From a virus: a DNA stretch of 23,260 bases. The notes beneath the pieces were generated by a model that was given only the letters and a program-made list of their open reading frames with translations, was not told the origin of the DNA and ran no database searches. A program made the position numbers and the translations under genes. This document shows, one piece after another, positions 6,924 to 19,880 of this stretch (position 1 is the stretch's first letter; each line of letters begins with the position of its first letter). The DNA lies in IMG/VR virus record IMGVR_UViG_3300018015_000031, positions 1 through 23,260 of that record. One strand, written 5' to 3'.

Positions 6924-8030
6924 TTATGCTAACGGCGCTCCCCACGCTGAACCAATTACTATACCGAAATCGGTGTAAGATGTTGCACCAATTGCTGAAT
7001 TTCCAAACTTCGTCTTGGTCATACCGAAAATCCCTCCTCCACGGATCATAACGAAGCGTTTTGCATCCTTTTCGTAAGGCACAAATGCAAGCGTTGTAGA
7101 ATGAGATTCTCCGGCACCGCCCCAAGCCCAGCATGCAGCCTGAGCACCGACCAAGAAGTTCCTATACACATTACCTGTAGTATTGTAAGATGATGCACGC
7201 ACACGCTGAGATTTGCTAACGATCAAGCCGTTGTACTCAAACTCAACATTCGGTATCTGTAACTTCTGCCCAGATCTTACAATGTCTCCCCATTGCCCTG
7301 CGTTCATGTTCGTTCTTAACGCATCAAAGCAATAATTATGCAAGAACACACGGTAGTAATTCTTACCGTTGTGCCGGATTGGTCTGACCTTGTAATAAGG
7401 AGGAAGGTTCAGGTCCATCAATTCGGCCCTCTGCTTCATCTTATCCAAGAATGACAAATCTATGTAATTTGCTGCAGTCATGGCTGCTTCTGCACCCGAT
7501 GAACCATCTGTTCCTGTAGCTAAACCAGAGCACATCCAATGCTTAGCATCCGGGTCGGTTATTGCTGTAGCAAACGACTGCCCAGCAATGAGGAACGACG
7601 TGTCACCGCAGAGATTGGCAAACATATAATCTGAAAGCTTTGCAGCCCACCAATCATTGAGAGCCATTTTGCCCTCTTCCATAAGAGCATATGGAATTCT
7701 CTGCTCATCCATTTTGCTCCCTGTATCGACAGCATGATTAAGCTCTTCAATTGTTACTTTGAAGTTCCTAAAAGCCAAACGCTCTTCGTTTCCCTCAACA
7801 GGCATCTGGCCAACAACACCTTCTCCGGTTAACGGAAGACGAATACCGAAGGTGATTGTATCTCCCACTCCCTTAGCAAGATCATTCTTCATCTGAACAA
7901 TTGCATCTGCTGAAGTACCAACAAGATCGTTGAATTCTACAGCAGGAAGCAAAATCCTGAATAGATCCCTTGCCCACTTCTTTCTCGTGAGTGGATCGTT
8001 GGTTAGAAAAATCAACGGTTCTGTAGCCAT
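6924..8030 (-). CDS. Major capsid protein, N4 gp56-like family
   Basis: This is a 368-aa protein. Its N-terminal half matches the pattern I associate with N4 gp56-family capsid proteins: FLTNDPLTRKKWARDLF, GTSADAIVQMKNDLAKGVGD, ITFGIRLPLTGEGVVG, then the GNEERL ... NHAVDTGSKMDEQRIPYALMEEG ... LNDWWAAKLSDYMFANLCGD segment. Later segments include FLHNYCFDALRTN and GGGIFGMTKTKFG. It forms the HK97-fold icosahedral shell. It lies immediately after the scaffold gene, as expected. The Shine-Dalgarno AAGGAGTG precedes the ATG. The family has no obvious prohead-protease delta domain here, and the separate scaffold agrees with that. Confidence 0.9.
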   Translation of the reverse strand: MATEPLIFLTNDPLTRKKWARDLFRILLPAVEFNDLVGTSADAIVQMKNDLAKGVGDTITFGIRLPLTGEGVVGQMPVEGNEERLAFRNFKVTIEELNHAVDTGSKMDEQRIPYALMEEGKMALNDWWAAKLSDYMFANLCGDTSFLIAGQSFATAITDPDAKHWMCSGLATGTDGSSGAEAAMTAANYIDLSFLDKMKQRAELMDLNLPPYYKVRPIRHNGKNYYRVFLHNYCFDALRTNMNAGQWGDIVRSGQKLQIPNVEFEYNGLIVSKSQRVRASSYNTTGNVYRNFLVGAQAACWAWGGAGESHSTTLAFVPYEKDAKRFVMIRGGGIFGMTKTKFGNSAIGATSYTDFGIVIGSAWGAPLA

Positions 8031-8852: not shown

Positions 8853-10832
8853 TTACTTTCCTCCCTTTTTACCTTCTTTTGGTTTAGCCACTTCTTGAGA
8901 TTTTTGATGTCCCTTTAACCCCGTATCAACAATCTTTCCATGAATCTTATGGTCAGCAATTGCCTCCTTCGACTGATTCTGTGCATCAATCTTTCTCAAT
9001 TCCAACTGCAATTGTTGTTCTCTAAACTGAGCAACTTGTCTCCGCGCTGAGAGTGGCATATCCATATACTCCATAATCATTTCTGGAGGTATTGTGCCTG
9101 GATTATTTTGTGAGAAATCATTAAGCATTGCTGCAATCGTCATTCTCATCGTAACATTATCAACCGCTTCATCAACTGCCAAATCATACTCTCCCGCTGA
9201 AAGATCATTGATTTTTGGTGCAGCAGGGTGTATTTGTTGATTAACTGCAATGTTCATCGCCCCCTCTTGTCCTTCAATTCGTATCATGGTTTCTTCTGTA
9301 ACAAACTGCTGAATCATGCCTAAGAGAAACTTTCCTCCCTGAATTCTTGATTCCCTAAAATTGTCATATAAGGTGTAGAGGACTGCAATATTGGTATCTT
9401 GTCTCATCTTTGCAGTCACGCCCGGCTCCCGAGACGATGTTTGAATTCCAAGCATCGTATCTTGAATACCGGAGACGTCTTTCATATCTTGATCAGCCAT
9501 TTGTTCAAGTTGATTATAAGTCTGAGGAATCTGTGGCTGATCCGTAAACTTCCACTTATCCCAAAATGGCGGATTGATTTCAAGACGGAAATTTGGTTCA
9601 GATGAATGTTCCTTATATTTCTCTTCATCAGCCAAAGCACCAACTGCATGAACTAAAATGTTCTTTTGTGCAACATTAAGCAAATGGGCAAGTTGCCTCT
9701 TAACGGTATTCTGCAAACGTTGAGGATCTTTCATACCTCGAATTACGCTCAACCACCTATTTTCATCTTCAAGTTTATAAGCTCCATACAAAATAATTGG
9801 AAAGTAATCATTGTCATTTCCTCTGAATTTATATGGTGATGGTCCTTGCTCCATGATCATTGTACTTGAAAAAACTGCGTAAAATACGGTCTTGCGTAAA
9901 CGCTCAGCTGACTGAATTTGCTTAGGGTCAATCTTAATAGACTTACCATCAGGCCCCGGAACTCCTTGAACAAAAGCTTCCTGAACTTTCTTAAATTCAG
10001 CTGGTGAGCATGATTCAATCTTTCCACTCAACGGATTTCTGAACCAAGTCACTTTATCCCAGACACGATACCAACATTCACTTACCCGATATTTGTTGCG
10101 AATTTCATCATAATAAAAGGGAATTGGATGAGGAGGACTGGTATTGCTTAATGATCTCACTTGATTGAGATCCAGTTGAGGCCAGTATGCCAGAATGTCT
10201 TCAGCAAAAAGCCACTTATCAACTACGATATATCTTGCATCAGACATATCATATTCTTGAGATAACGGATCTACCAAGACATCACGACCAGCAAGACGCT
10301 TACTTTTCAATTCAGGCTTGAATGGATTTGATCCACTTACCCAATAATACTGATATGATCGACCTGACTTAATTGCGTGTTCAAAACACTCATTCTCAAT
10401 ACGCTTAATGCGCATATTTCTACGATAATGTTTCATTGCTCCATTCATAATTTCGCTCATTGCTTCATCTTCCTGAGCAACGGAAAAGATGTATGGTGCT
10501 CTATTTGATTGAGCAGCTAAACCAACAAGCATATTGATCTTAGGCATGATCTTATTAAATGTTGAATTGGGCCGTCTTTGATCTCTTAATTTATCTGCAA
10601 CCTCTTTTGTATCTTGAAAGCCAGCATACATACGATAATCTTCTTCACTCTCAATACGCCAATTATACTCCGGTGTAGAACATTCTGCTTCATTCACCCA
10701 ATAAAGTAATTTGTTACGTAAGGTGATTTCATCCTTAACATCCGTCGCAAGGTTGATGTCAGGAACGTCACCGACACCAGACATTGGTTGATTATGTACT
10801 AAGGTATCGGGAATATCGACTATGTTTGCCAT
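8853..10832 (-). CDS. Portal protein, P22 gp1-like
   Basis: This 659-aa protein is slightly shorter than P22 gp1. Characteristic segments are NKLLYWVNEAE, EEDYRMYAGFQ, RRPNSTFNKIMPKINMLVGL, HAIKSGRSYQYYW, GRDVLVDPLSQEYDMSDARYI and ISGIQDTMLGIQTSSREPG, all recognisable from the P22-type portal family. It forms the dodecameric ring at the packaging vertex that binds terminase and the adaptor. The C-terminal 60 residues are Gln-rich and helical and end in a basic tail, EVAKPKEGKKGGK, with a VAKP motif shared by nearby small proteins. The ATG overlaps the previous stop (TAATG), and TGGAGT is upstream. Confidence 0.9.
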   Translation of the reverse strand: MANIVDIPDTLVHNQPMSGVGDVPDINLATDVKDEITLRNKLLYWVNEAECSTPEYNWRIESEEDYRMYAGFQDTKEVADKLRDQRRPNSTFNKIMPKINMLVGLAAQSNRAPYIFSVAQEDEAMSEIMNGAMKHYRRNMRIKRIENECFEHAIKSGRSYQYYWVSGSNPFKPELKSKRLAGRDVLVDPLSQEYDMSDARYIVVDKWLFAEDILAYWPQLDLNQVRSLSNTSPPHPIPFYYDEIRNKYRVSECWYRVWDKVTWFRNPLSGKIESCSPAEFKKVQEAFVQGVPGPDGKSIKIDPKQIQSAERLRKTVFYAVFSSTMIMEQGPSPYKFRGNDNDYFPIILYGAYKLEDENRWLSVIRGMKDPQRLQNTVKRQLAHLLNVAQKNILVHAVGALADEEKYKEHSSEPNFRLEINPPFWDKWKFTDQPQIPQTYNQLEQMADQDMKDVSGIQDTMLGIQTSSREPGVTAKMRQDTNIAVLYTLYDNFRESRIQGGKFLLGMIQQFVTEETMIRIEGQEGAMNIAVNQQIHPAAPKINDLSAGEYDLAVDEAVDNVTMRMTIAAMLNDFSQNNPGTIPPEMIMEYMDMPLSARRQVAQFREQQLQLELRKIDAQNQSKEAIADHKIHGKIVDTGLKGHQKSQEVAKPKEGKKGGK

Positions 10833-12352: not shown

Positions 12353-13864
12353 TTACGCGGTCATCCAGGCGTAATTATCTCCTGTTCCCTTTCCAAACTG
12401 CTTTTCTCTCCACCTGAAATTTGGATCTTTTTTAACTTGCGATTTATTTGCAAACACTTTTGTTGAGATATTGTTAAAATACTCAGATAGACATAATGCA
12501 TCAGCGATATTTGGTGAAGCAATTCCTCGTGCTCTCATTTGCTTCTTGCTCTCAACCTTAATTCCACCATTGACATTAAAATCATATGTTGGACTTGACA
12601 ATTCATTAGCCAATTGTCGACCAAGTGACAATGTATCTCCAGCTCGCATGATGTCTGGAAAGGAATACTTTGCTGCCAAACACTTTTCCTTAACCATGAC
12701 CCAAAGTTCATCACGTAAGCGATCGTATCGCGTAATGTCACTTGACATATTTGCTACATTAATACCAAATAATCCCCTTAAATTGTGTTTCATCAGCCAA
12801 TCCGTAACGCCAGCGCCAACGCCTATCTCATCAATTGCTATACCTTGAGCTTCCATTTCCTGAAAACTTTGGAGTATAAATCCACCAAGACTTATTGTAT
12901 TAAGTCCGTGGAACTCTTCCCAGGGGGAGATGACATTTCCTCTTCTTGGAAGGATAATAGAAGCATCTTCGCCGTACCTCGCAACATCAACTCCAAGATA
13001 TATTGGTTCATCTTCAGATGCCACGATATCATTTCCGATACACTGCTCAGCCCAAGATAAAGAGATAAGTGTTCGTTCATCCTCCAACGGAGGTTCTCCC
13101 ATGACTCTGATTCGAAAGACATTTGACGCCTCCCCATACTTAGTTTTCATATCCTGCCACATTGATTCCTTAACCAATGATGATTTCCGTGAGTCAAAAT
13201 GGAATTTCGTCCACTTCTTATTTATTTCTGGATGAAAATGCGTATCATAAAAATAGCCCGAATTTCTGGTCATGTTTCCAATAAGAATGCATTTGTTATC
13301 TTCCTGAGTCAATGCACCTTCAAGAGGTATGAAAATTGGATCTACGACGCCCGAAGCTTCGTCCACCACCACCATAAGATGTTTCTCATGTAAGCCTGCA
13401 AGCGTTTCAGCTTGCTCTTCTTTCGTAGCTTTAGCCGAAGCGGTAATTGCTCTACACCACCATGTTTTTGGAAAATCCTTATGAAAGATTTTATCTTTCT
13501 GAATAACGAACTCATTTTTTATCTCCGAGCCAAGCATCCACTTCGCAATTTCGCTCCACAAAATATCAGATAATTGATGCCCTGTAGGCGCTGTGCATGC
13601 TACCTTACATACCATGACATCAGATCCATCATCAGATGTCCCAGCATGAGTCACCATAAACCAGCAAATTGCAACAGCAATACATGCATCCTTACCAACT
13701 CCATGCCCACTTCTGACGGTAATGTGAGTTGAATTGGGAAGGGTGGAGAGTATCTGTGCTTGCTGATCGCTTGGAGTGAAATGCATACATTCCTTAGCGA
13801 AAAGTAACGGAGATACTCTCCACTCATTAATCTTCCTTAAGACAACCGGGTTAAGACTTCCCAA
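12353..13864 (-). CDS. terL: Terminase large subunit
   Basis: This 503-aa protein has both terminase domains. ATPase: Walker A GHGVGKD at residues 53-59, Walker B VVVDEA at 165-170, and coupling motif IGNMTR at 195-200. RNase H-like nuclease: GVDVARYGED at 291-300 (D293), IAIDEIGVG at 342-350 (D345) and PNIADAL at 451-457 (D455) supply the acidic metal ligands. It packages DNA into the procapsid through the portal. The start is a TTG, chosen because AAGAGG lies 5-6 nt upstream and the conserved N-terminal segment (WRVSPLLFAKEC ... PSDQQAQIL) would be lost from the ATG at residue 27. The stop of the upstream gene overlaps this Shine-Dalgarno. Confidence 0.95.
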   Translation of the reverse strand: MGSLNPVVLRKINEWRVSPLLFAKECMHFTPSDQQAQILSTLPNSTHITVRSGHGVGKDACIAVAICWFMVTHAGTSDDGSDVMVCKVACTAPTGHQLSDILWSEIAKWMLGSEIKNEFVIQKDKIFHKDFPKTWWCRAITASAKATKEEQAETLAGLHEKHLMVVVDEASGVVDPIFIPLEGALTQEDNKCILIGNMTRNSGYFYDTHFHPEINKKWTKFHFDSRKSSLVKESMWQDMKTKYGEASNVFRIRVMGEPPLEDERTLISLSWAEQCIGNDIVASEDEPIYLGVDVARYGEDASIILPRRGNVISPWEEFHGLNTISLGGFILQSFQEMEAQGIAIDEIGVGAGVTDWLMKHNLRGLFGINVANMSSDITRYDRLRDELWVMVKEKCLAAKYSFPDIMRAGDTLSLGRQLANELSSPTYDFNVNGGIKVESKKQMRARGIASPNIADALCLSEYFNNISTKVFANKSQVKKDPNFRWREKQFGKGTGDNYAWMTA

Positions 13865-15637: not shown

Positions 15638-16069
15638 TCACGCCTCCTTCAAAATCATTGCTCTTAATGCTTCACACCTATTAAGCAATCCCTTCAAGAA
15701 CTCTGGTTTTGCACTTGCATGATAATGTTCTTCTCGTTGTCGTAAATACTCATTCCAATCTTGCGTTAAAATCAATGTTGTTCTTGCCCAAGATGGACCA
15801 AGATTTACGCTTGAATCAAAGACCACTATATCTAAAGGATATGATAAGTCATCACAATCAAGTGGAGTCCAAAAATGGATCTTGTAAAATGCTTCCGCAT
15901 AAGCTTGACGTGATGTTGGTAGAAGATCTTTTATTGCTTTATATTCTTTTGGCCAGTAATGAGATGAGATTCCCATAATGGTAGACCCACCTGGATCATC
16001 TCTCAAATCAGATAGATTCCCTTCTGCCCTTAAAGTAAACGAGATTCCAATAGGCCAACTTGTTTTCAT
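15638..16069 (-). CDS. Endolysin, glycoside hydrolase family 108-like muramidase
   Basis: This 143-aa protein has the GH108/TtsA-like N-terminal signature: FTLRAEGNLSDLRDDPGGST then MGISSHYW. The Glu in RAEGN (E16) is the expected catalytic acid, and DDPGGSTxxGIS is the family's substrate-loop motif. The C-terminal half (YPLDIVVFDSSVNLGPSWA) also fits. It would cleave peptidoglycan at the end of infection. It has no signal peptide, so release depends on a holin-type protein, probably one of the adjacent membrane proteins. The ATG overlaps the previous stop (TAATG). Confidence 0.85.
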   Translation of the reverse strand: MKTSWPIGISFTLRAEGNLSDLRDDPGGSTIMGISSHYWPKEYKAIKDLLPTSRQAYAEAFYKIHFWTPLDCDDLSYPLDIVVFDSSVNLGPSWARTTLILTQDWNEYLRQREEHYHASAKPEFLKGLLNRCEALRAMILKEA

Positions 16070-16343: not shown

Positions 16344-16355
16344 ATCAAAATTGAA
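16344..16355. repeat. Degenerate palindrome candidate
   Basis: ATCAAAATTGAA matches the 12-bp form seen at 21016-21027 with one mismatch. It spans the stop codon of the HTH gene, about 15 bp upstream of the next ATG. Confidence 0.35.
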
Positions 16356-16809
16356 AAACTTCATCTTCATCATTTCCATTTGTCAATTTCGGAGTTACAT
16401 CAATTATTGATGTCTCTGATCCAATTACGTAATTTCTCTTTTCTAACTCAATTAAATAAGCAACCAGGCCCGTTATCTTACCTTTTACTGGATTTTCAAT
16501 CTCCGTCTCACTTTCACTTAAGACTTTATATGAAAGAACTAAATCTTTCAATGAAGCCTCTTCAATCTTTTCAGGAGTGATTCGATCAAGAATTGCGGCC
16601 TGTAACTCAGTTAATTTTAACGACTTAATTGCTCTCCAATTAAGGAGGATTCCCTCTTTTTGTCTGAGATCGTTGATCTTCTTATTCAATGTATTAATCG
16701 AGCAGCCCAACTCTCCTGCAATTTCACTCTTAGGAACACCATCCTCAAGCATGTTTATCATTGCTTCAGTATCCATTTCAAAAGGCGGACGACCAACTCC
16801 GTTACCCAT
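16345..16809 (-). CDS. HTH protein, probable terminase small subunit
   Basis: This 154-aa protein starts GRPPFEMDTEAMINMLEDGVPKSEIA and continues ELGCSINTLNKKINDLR. That is a helix-turn-helix at about residues 10-50, preceded by the GRP motif common in phage small terminases and resolvase-type HTHs. A helical region follows that could oligomerise. It is the only DNA-binding candidate in the packaging region, but it is separated from large terminase by the lysis cassette. A late transcription regulator is the main alternative. It overlaps the PAD-like gene by 8 bp. Confidence 0.6.
   Translation of the reverse strand: MGNGVGRPPFEMDTEAMINMLEDGVPKSEIAGELGCSINTLNKKINDLRQKEGILLNWRAIKSLKLTELQAAILDRITPEKIEEASLKDLVLSYKVLSESETEIENPVKGKITGLVAYLIELEKRNYVIGSETSIIDVTPKLTNGNDEDEVFQF
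16397..16413. repeat. Dispersed palindrome copy 4
   Basis: The perfect 17-bp palindrome ACATCAATTATTGATGT has its core at 16399-16411. It lies near the 3' end of the HTH gene, about 70 bp upstream of the next ATG. Confidence 0.75.
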
Positions 16810-17698
16810 TTTTCAAGTTTCCATCAATTTTTGATCCAATCTGATAATCCATCGTCACACAAGCCAATAAACCACCTTCCATAGACAATTGTCTGCAGTC
16901 AATAAAGACAATGGAATACTTTGGATATAAAAACTTAAGCATCTTTCTTACTTCAGCATCCTTTGCAAGCCCCATTGCCGGAGCCAAAATAAGTTTATCA
17001 ACCTTTAAGAAATTGATATAATATCCAAAACCTGGATTGAAATCATCTGCTTCCGGAAACGCTTTTCTGAAATTCTCTTCTGTCATGTTCCAGTCCCAAG
17101 CATCAAACGCAAAGGGAAGTTTGTAATAATTAAGGCTGTGACTTTCCAAAACCTTAATCAATTTCTTTTCATAAGCAATGTATGCTTTTGCATTCTTTGT
17201 GCAAGATGAATATTCGTTGATTAAGACAGTATTTTCATTGATCCACTTACAAATGCCATCAGCATGACCCAAATCATCATCTGGTTCAATAGGAACAATG
17301 ATTATTTCTGCTTGAAGAATCCACTCAAGTTTCATAACCACATCAGGTCCATTTTGAGCAATCACCTTATCACAAATAATTGCTCTGTCAAAATCCATAA
17401 TCACATTACCGATGTCAAGAATAATGTCACTATCAATTACTGGTTCAATAAGTCTCCTCCATATTGATTCATCAGGAACCGTTAATTGTTCAAAGTCAGT
17501 CCCATAACGGTCATAAACGAACTTGACAAAATGATCTCCAACTTGAATAGGCATCCAATCTCTACTCCAAATATTTCTGGTATTTGGAATAAGATTTACT
17601 TTAATTCCATAAGCCTCTAAATTGAGTTTCAGTGCCCAAAACACGTCTGGGTATCTTATTGCCAAATACTCTGTCATAAATACAATATTGCTCTCCAT
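16802..17698 (-). CDS. Agmatine deiminase / peptidyl-arginine deiminase-like pentein enzyme
   Basis: This 298-aa protein matches the agmatine deiminase/PAD_porph pattern along its length. IWSRDWMP (D47) corresponds to the W-M-R-D-x-x-P motif. IGNVIMDFDRAIICD corresponds to the G-G-N strand. GHADG (H145, D147) corresponds to the catalytic H-x-D. FGYYINF and DCRQLSMEGGLLACVT end in the nucleophile C280. The catalytic Asp, His, Asp and Cys all appear present. The residue before the Cys is Ala, where agmatine deiminases usually have His. The family removes ammonia from a guanidino group (agmatine to N-carbamoylputrescine, or peptidyl-Arg to citrulline). It sits 9 bp after the PSD-like gene and has TAGGAGG before the ATG. 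The substrate is unknown. Confidence 0.75.
   Translation of the reverse strand: MESNIVFMTEYLAIRYPDVFWALKLNLEAYGIKVNLIPNTRNIWSRDWMPIQVGDHFVKFVYDRYGTDFEQLTVPDESIWRRLIEPVIDSDIILDIGNVIMDFDRAIICDKVIAQNGPDVVMKLEWILQAEIIIVPIEPDDDLGHADGICKWINENTVLINEYSSCTKNAKAYIAYEKKLIKVLESHSLNYYKLPFAFDAWDWNMTEENFRKAFPEADDFNPGFGYYINFLKVDKLILAPAMGLAKDAEVRKMLKFLYPKYSIVFIDCRQLSMEGGLLACVTMDYQIGSKIDGNLKNG
16823..16835. repeat. Dispersed palindrome copy 5
   Basis: The core is ATCAATTTTTGAT, flanked by CC on both sides. It lies near the 3' end of the PAD-like gene, 13 bp upstream of the HTH gene's ATG, so it covers that gene's RBS region. Confidence 0.75.
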
Positions 17699-17706
17699 AA
17701 TGCCTC

Positions 17707-18420
17707 CTAATTCCTTGAGATTTTTATAATTCTGTCAATTCCCGCTTCCACATGCCACTTTTCAACCACCAAAGGCGAAAATTTAATGGACTTATTAATA
17801 AAGGGAATAATCAAATCTACTTGACTTCCCATTCTTACCGTTGAAAACCTTTCACATTGTGTATAAAATGCTCCACTTTCATGAAACGGAGCAATGACTT
17901 CAACTTCAAAATCAGCAATCTGAAGCAAATAATACTTTTGCTTGATGTTATTTAAGAAGATTTCGTTTTTCATGGCTTCGTTGAATAGAGAGTAAGACAT
18001 TTGGGCTTTCGGGACTCCCATCTTCTCCAGAATTCCACTCTCTATTGGCCTCATCGATAAATTCGTGACTTTCAAACTCGGCATCTTTTCGTATTTCACG
18101 AAGCCGCTCGTAGGCAAGCGATTCACGTGAACATCCAGGAAGGTCATAAATATGCTTAAGATAAGACATTTTTCTTTTATCTCTTCTCTTAGCAAATTGT
18201 TAATTGTGTACTTTCCTCCCTTAACATCAATAATGTCTTTATTCGGATCAACGATCTTGGAATAAAGAACAAATCCATCTGACGGAGCATAAAATGCATC
18301 TTTATCGTAGTAAGTTGCCCGAATCGGATCACGAGTCATATGATTAAGCCACTCACTTGTTGGAGTAGTCATCATTTTCTTTACATCACTTCTTGATAAA
18401 TATGAAGACATTGATTCCAT
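17707..18420 (-). CDS. Phosphatidylserine decarboxylase-like pyruvoyl enzyme
   Basis: This 237-aa protein has the PSD proenzyme landmarks. FYAPSDGFVL (D48) corresponds to the (S/A)-P-A-D-G motif. FLDVHVNRLPTSGFV (H98) corresponds to the L-D-V-H-V-N-R-x-P-x-x-G motif of the short PSD type. QIADFEVEVI and ERFSTVRMGSQVDLIIP contain the self-cleavage Gly-Ser (G198-S199), where the serine becomes the pyruvoyl group. Asp, His and Ser form the known self-processing triad. The length fits the short soluble-type PSD family. The substrate could be phosphatidylserine, but PSD homologues also decarboxylate free amino acids. The two neighbours act on guanidino compounds, so arginine or a derivative is a possible substrate. 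The Shine-Dalgarno is weak and 42 bp separate it from the previous gene. Confidence 0.8.
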   Translation of the reverse strand: MESMSSYLSRSDVKKMMTTPTSEWLNHMTRDPIRATYYDKDAFYAPSDGFVLYSKIVDPNKDIIDVKGGKYTINNLLREEIKEKCLILSIFMTFLDVHVNRLPTSGFVKYEKMPSLKVTNLSMRPIESGILEKMGVPKAQMSYSLFNEAMKNEIFLNNIKQKYYLLQIADFEVEVIAPFHESGAFYTQCERFSTVRMGSQVDLIIPFINKSIKFSPLVVEKWHVEAGIDRIIKISRN

Positions 18421-18462
18421 TCAATCTCGATTTCAATCTGGTCTTGGGTCTCGCCTGGAACT

Positions 18463-19401
18463 TTAATCAGGATAGGCGATACGATTAAGATGAAATACAC
18501 AACATGACAATGCCGCGCCACTTTTTGAGAATTCAGACAAATTTACGAATACTGGAGACAATGCCACCTTTGAACAAATCTTCTCCAACTCTTCATTCTT
18601 ATGTTTTTCGAAAGGATAATTTTCGTCCGTCTTCTTCAATTCAGATATGTCAGTCCCGTTATAAACGATCGAGCCAATCCTGACGCTATTTGTAATAGAC
18701 CACTGTGAATCTTTTTTCGAAACTGAGATAATTTCAGCCACACTCTCAATCTCTTTCTTGATATTAACATCAAGATTGTCTGTAGCCAAGATAACTTTAG
18801 ATCCTGATATAGGAAAGACGGAACAGTCGAGATGATATCGAAGTTGGTCTGGTTCATGCATCTTAATGATTTTTGCTCCAGAGAAACGTTCAATCCAGGA
18901 TAATGCGCGAATGTCACTTCTCTCCCCATATCCACCAATATAAATGTTCTCCCTTATCCATTTTAATTCAGCTTCACCTTCGAACTTAAATGGACATCTG
19001 GCCACTTTATACTCAGTAAATTCGAGAAATTTTGCAAGTTCTTTCTCTTCACCTGGCCTGCCTGGAGCGGTGAAATTTGATAAGATAATTTCCTTTCCAG
19101 CATGAGGAAGCGAAACTCCAGCATTTGTTATATAAACTTGATCTTGTAAACCTTTCTTAGGAGGAAGCAAATAAACCAAGGCATCTTGTGAGAACAAACC
19201 ATACATGGAGAAAAACTCAGCCATAGCTTTATTCTGATCGATAGGCCCTCCACCTTCTCGATTCATCCATGCATTGTTCTTAATTTTATTTGAGATGTAT
19301 TTCGGTGGACAAAGAATCAATTCGAGGAAGGACTCTTGAATCGAATCCTTCCCCTTAATGATTGAGGGATTCTTAAAAACCTTACTCGAGTTTTCGGCCA
19401 T
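18463..19401 (-). CDS. DDAH/arginine deiminase/amidinotransferase-like pentein enzyme
   Basis: This 312-aa protein has guanidine-modifying-enzyme motifs in order: LILCPPKYIS and NNAWMN near the N-terminus; ITNAGVSL (residues 91-98); ILSNF then GRPGEE (106-119); FEGEAEL (140-146); GYGERSD (157-163); RYHLDCSVFPI with H190; and FSKSGAALSCCVF with C300 as the likely nucleophile (C301 adjacent). This order matches the DDAH/citrulline-forming amidinotransferase family, not the agmatine deiminase family. The reaction would be hydrolysis or transfer of a guanidino group through a Cys-amidino intermediate. It is the second gene of the late operon. An in-frame stop directly precedes its ATG, so this is the furthest upstream start. 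Confidence 0.75.
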   Translation of the reverse strand: MAENSSKVFKNPSIIKGKDSIQESFLELILCPPKYISNKIKNNAWMNREGGGPIDQNKAMAEFFSMYGLFSQDALVYLLPPKKGLQDQVYITNAGVSLPHAGKEIILSNFTAPGRPGEEKELAKFLEFTEYKVARCPFKFEGEAELKWIRENIYIGGYGERSDIRALSWIERFSGAKIIKMHEPDQLRYHLDCSVFPISGSKVILATDNLDVNIKKEIESVAEIISVSKKDSQWSITNSVRIGSIVYNGTDISELKKTDENYPFEKHKNEELEKICSKVALSPVFVNLSEFSKSGAALSCCVFHLNRIAYPD

Positions 19402-19422
19402 TCAATCGATCTGTTGGATCAT

Positions 19423-19521
19423 TCATTTCTTTCCGCCCGTCGTCTTCCCACCTTTTGTTCCGCCACCAGCGGGCATTCCACCCTTACCTCCACCTTTTCC
19501 ACCAGCACAACCTTTTGACAT
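19423..19521 (-). CDS. 32-aa Gly/Lys-rich peptide at the head of the late operon
   Basis: This short gene starts MSKGCAGGKGGGKGG and ends TKGGKTTGGKK. It is almost entirely Gly and Lys, with one Cys (C5) and no Arg. It has the strongest Shine-Dalgarno of the operon start (AAGGAGG) and is the first gene after the late promoter, so it should be abundant. Similar tiny Gly/Lys peptides of unknown role exist in phages. It could be a nucleic-acid-binding peptide or a modified peptide. Adjacency to Cys-dependent and pyruvoyl enzymes makes the second idea worth testing, but nothing proves it. Confidence 0.7.
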   Translation of the reverse strand: MSKGCAGGKGGGKGGMPAGGGTKGGKTTGGKK

Positions 19522-19543: not shown

Positions 19544-19577
19544 ATATGCTACCTTCATTATGTAGATGATAGCATAT
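19544..19577. promoter_or_regulatory. Inverted repeat over the late promoter -10 and start site
   Basis: ATATGCTA (19544-19551) and TAGCATAT (19570-19577) are perfect eight-base arms around 18 bp. They bracket the expected transcription start and overlap the -10. It could be an operator for a late-gene regulator, or form a hairpin at the mRNA 5' end. Confidence 0.5.
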
Positions 19578-19594
19578 TTATTCCAGAAAGTCAA
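19566..19594 (-). promoter_or_regulatory. Late-operon promoter (sigma70-type)
   Basis: Read on the minus strand, TTGACT (19589-19594) is separated by 17 bp from TATCAT (19566-19571). A TG one base before the -10 makes it an extended -10. Transcription would start near 19559 and enter the 32-aa gene. It is the only clear minus-strand promoter at the head of the structural operon, so it probably drives the whole late region. Confidence 0.7.
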
Positions 19595-19851: not shown

Positions 19852-19880
19852 TTGACAACGCCCTGGCATTGTGGTATAAT
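19852..19880 (+). promoter_or_regulatory. Early promoter P1 (sigma70 consensus)
   Basis: TTGACA (19852-19857), a 17-bp spacer and TATAAT (19875-19880) are perfect consensus, with an extended -10 TGG. It shares TTGACAAC and TGTGGTAT-AT with the second plus-strand promoter at 21115. It drives the parS-containing leader and the 153-aa gene. Confidence 0.85.

Follow-up and report, generated by a model that had tools for sequence, protein, structure and literature searches.

A predicted arginine dihydrolase encoded beside a PSD-fold pyruvoyl decarboxylase in phage late operons, and a candidate route to putrescine

Phages encode enzymes of polyamine synthesis, including pyruvoyl ornithine decarboxylases (ODC) and arginine decarboxylases (ADC) that descend from SpeD, and homologues of agmatine deiminase were reported from chloroviruses and from no other viruses (Li et al. 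2023, PMC9992855). Homologues of phosphatidylserine decarboxylase (PSD) and arginine dihydrolases go unmentioned in that study. Here, we analyzed a 23 kb virus record (IMG/VR record IMGVR_UViG_3300018015_000031, 23,260 nucleotides; hereafter the window), in which three adjacent genes at positions 16802-19401, all on the minus strand, encode an ArgZ-like guanidino enzyme of the pentein class, a PSD-fold pyruvoyl decarboxylase and an enzyme of the agmatine-deiminase/PAD superfamily. An initial annotation had described this cassette from the DNA sequence. Its three open reading frames (ORFs) are indeed intact and adjacent, and every catalytic residue that it named is present. The first two genes (hereafter the pair) may convert arginine to ornithine and then to putrescine late in infection, with the third enzyme as an agmatine-fed side step; we put the chances of this reading at about even.

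The guanidino enzyme and the pyruvoyl decarboxylase

The first gene (18463-19401, minus strand) encodes a protein of 312 aa that belongs to phrog_12759. No Pfam family scored above its cut-off for this protein, and PF02274, which the initial annotation had proposed as a check, gave no match. The protein matched two arginine dihydrolases of solved structure, Sll1336 (ArgZ) and Alr4995 (AgrE), with E 4e-18. With a profile of 36 relatives, only ArgZ/AgrE structures were found at E <=1e-5 (best 5e-36). The AlphaFold model (pLDDT 91) was superimposed on ArgZ (6JV0) with Z 35.6 and an rmsd of 1.8 A over 264 residues. DDAH (dimethylarginine dimethylaminohydrolase; Z 28.3), AstB (27.9), arginine deiminase (ADI; 26) and amidinotransferases (~24) ranked lower. 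Thus, among solved structures, both sequence and fold place the protein nearest to ArgZ, with DDAH and AstB at a clear distance. The label "DDAH/arginine-deiminase-like" in the initial annotation was right about the pentein class and too generic in pointing to DDAH. Xanthomonas phage phiXF1 (PP475461.1, 37805-38668) also encodes a distant homologue of DDAH type with 21.8% identity, which its record names dimethylarginine dimethylaminohydrolase; the same search series gave no PSD-like match in this phage.

The catalytic set of the ArgZ-like protein consists of N43, N93, R115, E141, R161, H190, D192 and C300. In the sequence alignment, numbered with an offset of 21, the first seven align with ArgZ N22, N71, R90, E118, R139, H168 and D170, and C300 corresponds to C264 by structural range. 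These seven ArgZ positions are active-site residues, and their numbers and letters are consistent in the alignment. Conservation was scored over 72 non-redundant relatives, in which the active-site columns are kept at 97-100% (N43 and N93, 71/72 each; R115, 72/72; R161, 69/71; H190, 71/71; C300, 70/71). The Cys-His-Glu catalytic set of the penteins (C300, H190 and E141) is therefore invariant or nearly so, and the choice of H190 and C300 in the initial annotation was correct. The title of PDB entry 6JUZ describes an N71S mutant in which a covalent intermediate was trapped.

In ADI and DDAH, two arginines hold the carboxyl group of the substrate (PMC11659421, a paper on a related enzyme). R115 and R161, at the positions of ArgZ R90 and R139, fit these arginines in order and in rough spacing, and by this comparison they may form the carboxyl-holding pair. 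Since they are kept in the family, arginine is favoured over agmatine as the substrate. From its sequence and model, the protein is a predicted arginine dihydrolase, although it is not a formal member of the equivalog family.

The second gene (17707-18420, minus strand) encodes a protein of 237 aa that belongs to phrog_12670. The profile check with PF02666 gave a match above the curated cut-off (E 1.1e-17; 64.8 bits, gathering cut-off 22). D48, H98, G198 and S199, all correctly picked out by the initial annotation, are kept in 70/70 relatives, and self-cleavage is predicted between G198 and S199. The protein falls below every PSD equivalog cut-off of NCBIfam (best 63 bits versus 183). In the structural comparison of its model (pLDDT 88.8), Foldseek alone gave no match, and a second aligner found E. 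coli PSD (Z 11.1), PsiD (9.5) and the arginine decarboxylase of Aspergillus oryzae (9JF5; 8.7). Because EIIA-glucose domains scored somewhat higher than these PSD-type structures, over fewer residues, the fold match by itself is of moderate strength, and the protein was assigned chiefly by its sequence profile. The protein represents a separate subfamily of self-cleaving (pyruvoyl) PSD-fold decarboxylases. Since PsiD and the A. oryzae enzyme share the fold, the PSD fold is known for free amino acids including arginine. The second protein is a predicted ornithine (or arginine) decarboxylase.

Linkage of the genes and their late-operon setting

IMG/VR was scanned with each of the three proteins and GTDB with the PSD-like family, and all ORFs of the fetched loci were profile-searched for the cassette families. 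The viral coupling counts refer to the best 80 of at least 243 loci found with the ArgZ-like profile, and loci were counted since some contigs carry several locus ids. The PSD-like gene lies downstream on the same strand in 77 of these 80 loci. The remaining three loci reach the end of their contig within ~140 bases. Of 82 adjacent pairs, 69 show a one-base overlap between the ArgZ-like stop and the PSD-like start. The mirror-tree distance correlation of the two proteins was 0.945 over 62 loci, and 500 permutations gave <=0.21. In bacteria, where the loci were found by the PSD-like profile alone, an ArgZ-like gene adjoins in 26/28, with the gene order reversed. One of the remaining two loci is truncated, and the other is on a Latescibacterota chromosome with an ArgZ-like gene elsewhere in the genome.

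The initial annotation had treated the three genes as a unit and had asked about their co-occurrence in related phages. Counting the window, ten contigs carry the complete trio, arranged in one of two gene orders, and four more are cut by contig ends. The co-occurrence is thus borne out. Since the trio recurs in the same or permuted order, the grouping is not due to chance. However, the third gene is not beside the pair in most phages. In the Bacteroides DAC phages, the pair is adjacent and a gene of the third type is far away; in the Campylobacter Fletcherviruses, both pair genes are present and unlinked. Thus, the ArgZ-like and PSD-like genes form the core unit, to which the agmatine-deiminase-like gene is an optional addition.

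In T4-like contigs, the pair usually comes right after the major capsid gene (54 loci), often with PhoH and neck genes behind it. The nearest relatives of the window carry P22/SU10-like portal and adaptor genes. The pair is thus part of late gene clusters in phages of more than one type. In the window, the intergenic gaps inside the cassette are 42 and 8 nt, and the third gene (16802-17698) is followed on the minus strand by a helix-turn-helix (HTH) protein of 154 aa (16345-16809), whose start overlaps the end of the third gene by 8 nt and which, from its position, is a possible small terminase. Further downstream on the same strand are a GH108 endolysin (15638-16069; PF05838, E 8.7e-17), the large terminase subunit (12353-13864; phrog_2, E 4e-34), the portal protein (8853-10832; phrog_156, E 2e-82), the major capsid protein (6924-8030; phrog_334, E 8e-57) and a head-closure protein. 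These downstream genes show that the cassette heads a late operon, in agreement with the initial annotation.

Ahead of the cassette, there is a weak promoter-like site (TTGACT-17-TATCAT; 19566-19594, minus strand) with 10/12 consensus matches; the region has 17 such sites versus 11.8 expected. A short ORF just ahead of the cassette (19422-19521, minus strand) has a good ribosome-binding site and encodes a 32-residue Gly/Lys-rich peptide, MSKGCAGGKGGGKGGMPAGGGTKGGKTTGGKK. In the divergent region, a perfect sigma-70 promoter (TTGACA, 17 nt, TATAAT with TG; 19852-19880, plus strand) faces the right-hand genes.

The proposed route and its alternatives

The third protein (298 aa) matched PF04371 with E 9.2e-21, above the curated cut-off, and the closest solved structures by profile are agmatine deiminases and their relatives. 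D47, D95, H145, D147, N229 and C280 are invariant in 13-14 relatives; D47, H145, D147 and C280, the residues given in the initial annotation, are present in 14/14. With the PF02666 and PF04371 matches and the pentein structure match of the first protein, the enzyme classes proposed there are borne out. Since the third protein is short (330-390 aa in solved relatives) and scores 34.8 bits against the TIGR03380 agmatine deiminase cut-off of 381.8, it was not assigned to one substrate and is placed in the agmatine-deiminase superfamily only. Separately, a PAD-like protein that carries a long extension at its N terminus (L006, 6972-8513) was observed on a human faecal contig. This contig, on which an intron-type reverse transcriptase is also encoded, probably stems from a mobile element of bacteria and not from a phage.

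From homology, fold, the intact catalytic residues, the strict coupling of the pair and the late-operon setting, we infer substrates, a direction of flow, a role for the third enzyme and a purpose as follows. The ArgZ-like enzyme would convert L-arginine to L-ornithine, ammonia and CO2 via a covalent cysteine intermediate, and would thus act as a dihydrolase and not as a deiminase. The PSD-like proenzyme would cut itself at G198-S199, forming the pyruvoyl group, and would then decarboxylate ornithine to putrescine. The third protein, likely an accessory acting on host agmatine, probably deiminates host-made agmatine to N-carbamoylputrescine, from which host enzymes could form further putrescine. 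Polyamines neutralise phage DNA. Since the cassette is grouped with genes for the head, for packaging and for lysis, the polyamine would be produced during DNA packaging, and its simplest use is perhaps as a counter-ion for the packaged DNA, or in the upkeep of translation.

The genomic context of the bacterial carriers bears on this route. The set comprises 19 genomes, many of which are metagenome-assembled genomes and may be incomplete. The neighbours of the bacterial pair often include a MATE exporter, and in Verrucomicrobia a PotD-like spermidine/putrescine-binding protein is encoded near the pair. Five pair-carrying Verrucomicrobia each hold one LysA-sized PF02784 protein, and in these five no convincing OKR decarboxylase, PvlArgDC, SpeD or arginase/agmatinase was found. 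One of them has an OKR match barely above the cut-off (27.8 versus 27 bits), which we take for another fold-type I pyridoxal phosphate enzyme. Since other routes were not found, the pair is the only visible putrescine source in these five genomes. A DHS-like (homospermidine synthase-like) protein is present in only 3/19 genomes and does not track with the pair.

Several observations weigh against the route from arginine through ornithine to putrescine. The ArgZ-like protein scores 86.6 bits against a cut-off of 450 for the NCBIfam arginine dihydrolase model NF052232, and the dimethylargininase model nearly ties with it (84 versus 87). The case for dihydrolase activity leans partly on the Asn at the N71 position, and that for the counter-ion role partly on gene position and general background. 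The carbamoylputrescine hydrolase NCPAH (PF00795), the enzyme of the next step, was found in 0/21 phage records, many of which are fragments, so the third protein would probably need host help. Moreover, several bacterial carriers have other ADC/ODC routes, such as SpeA-sized PF02784 proteins, and OKR decarboxylases occur in Saccharothrix carrying the pair. One Latescibacterota genome (L148, 5156-7744, minus strand) clusters PvlArgDC, arginase/agmatinase-family and deoxyhypusine-synthase-like proteins, apparently a complete agmatine-based polyamine pathway. Since such routes are present, the pair may serve another purpose.

The initial annotation had proposed a polyamine route, which is supported in general, with the order arginine, agmatine and carbamoylputrescine. 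Nearest to this order is a scheme in which the PSD-like enzyme would decarboxylate arginine to agmatine, on which the ArgZ-like enzyme (and the agmatine-deiminase-like enzyme where present) would act. The PSD-fold arginine decarboxylase of A. oryzae is a structural relative of the second protein, and the third protein is a member of the agmatine deiminase superfamily. However, agmatine has no carboxyl group, whereas the carboxyl-holding arginines are kept in nearly all of the 72 ArgZ-like members; the third gene is missing next to the pair in most phages, and one genome with the pair, that of the Latescibacterota cluster, already has PvlArgDC and an arginase/agmatinase. The agmatine order is unlikely, and the passage through ornithine fits better with an ArgZ-like first enzyme.

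It is also quite unlikely that the pair makes another arginine product, for instance an amidino-compound or a metabolite that is secreted, or that it breaks down arginine to yield ammonia and consume protons (acid relief or nitrogen supply) and not to provide polyamines. Downstream of the bacterial pair, a MATE-family exporter is encoded in Sulfurimonas, Sedimenticola, Chthoniobacterales and Pseudonocardiales (L009, L010, L012, L013 and L035), which suggests export of a product or by-product. The further polyamine routes of several carriers and the amidinotransferases among the structural relatives of the first protein also speak for this reading. In contrast, the amidinotransferases are far under ArgZ by fold, and the late-operon setting in phages suits nucleic-acid packaging better than a secreted product.

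A lipid or virion role, in which a true phosphatidylserine decarboxylase alters the host membrane or the enzymes are structural parts of the head, is very improbable. The Campylobacter phage genes are publicly annotated as PSD, and capsid genes adjoin the pair. However, a second, canonical PSD is present in 16/19 bacterial carrier genomes, with 137-211 bits versus 78-97 for that of the pair. Since most carriers have this separate PSD, the paralogue in the pair would do something else and is probably not the phospholipid enzyme. Phosphatidylserine, which the initial annotation had listed as a possible substrate, thus finds no support, the scores being far under the PSD cut-offs. The strict coupling with a guanidino enzyme also argues against a lipid role, and a purely structural role leaves the invariant catalytic residues unexplained.

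Attachment of putrescine, ornithine or agmatine to phage DNA, or modification of an arginine/lysine peptide, both also raised in the initial annotation, is extremely improbable: phage phiW-14 carries a polyamine-modified thymine and the cassette is directly preceded by the Gly/Lys-rich ORF, but the Pfam families listed for two 57-61 kb relatives comprise no hypermodification genes and, of modifying enzymes, only an N6/N4 methylase, a thymidylate synthase homologue was found only in large T4-like phages, and in those related loci that were checked, the peptide MSKGCAGGKGGGKGGMPAGGGTKGGKTTGGKK was not found ahead of the ArgZ-like gene.

Comparison with known systems

The pair was not found described as a pathway in the literature searched, with most subscription journals outside its coverage. 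A marine viral gene survey found in this search does not treat the pair, and neither gene is named in a transcriptome study of infection by Campylobacter phage NCTC 12673. Public records label the pair genes as phosphatidylserine decarboxylase and amidinotransferase, and surveys of viral metabolism may therefore file them under lipid or creatine metabolism. With the balance somewhat against it, we tentatively suggest an undescribed putrescine pathway widely shared by phages and bacteria, in which an arginine dihydrolase would act together with a PSD-fold ornithine decarboxylase; phages would express the two with their head genes and so supply the counter-ion for DNA packaging. Scattered polyamine genes of phages are known already; here, two enzymes are locked together across many phage lineages and several bacterial phyla. 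If the pair makes putrescine, polyamine metabolism would gain a new enzyme fold and a new source of ornithine. The origin of the counter-ions of packaged DNA, an old question, would then become testable through gene removal.

The pair would be a variant of known phage polyamine metabolism. As in the systems of PMC9992855, it would serve putrescine synthesis in phages with a pyruvoyl decarboxylase for ornithine or arginine and an enzyme giving ornithine from arginine; in those systems, however, the pyruvoyl enzymes are SpeD-derived and ornithine comes from a Mn arginase. The ArgZ-like protein shares the fold and the full active-site set with ArgZ/AgrE of the cyanobacterial ornithine-ammonia cycle. 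In contrast to them, it consists of a single domain and lacks the ornithine cyclodeaminase part at the C terminus, has ~25% identity and is paired with a decarboxylase. The PSD-like protein shares the PSD fold and the predicted pyruvoyl chemistry with PsiD, which acts on tryptophan, and with the A. oryzae arginine decarboxylase, and a soluble amino acid substrate is predicted here as well. Those two enzymes are fungal and longer, whereas the PSD-like protein is prokaryotic and viral and is coupled to an ArgZ-like enzyme. The third protein holds the catalytic Asp, His, Asp and Cys of agmatine deiminase and Porphyromonas-type PAD, although it is shorter than the solved members and far under the equivalog cut-off.

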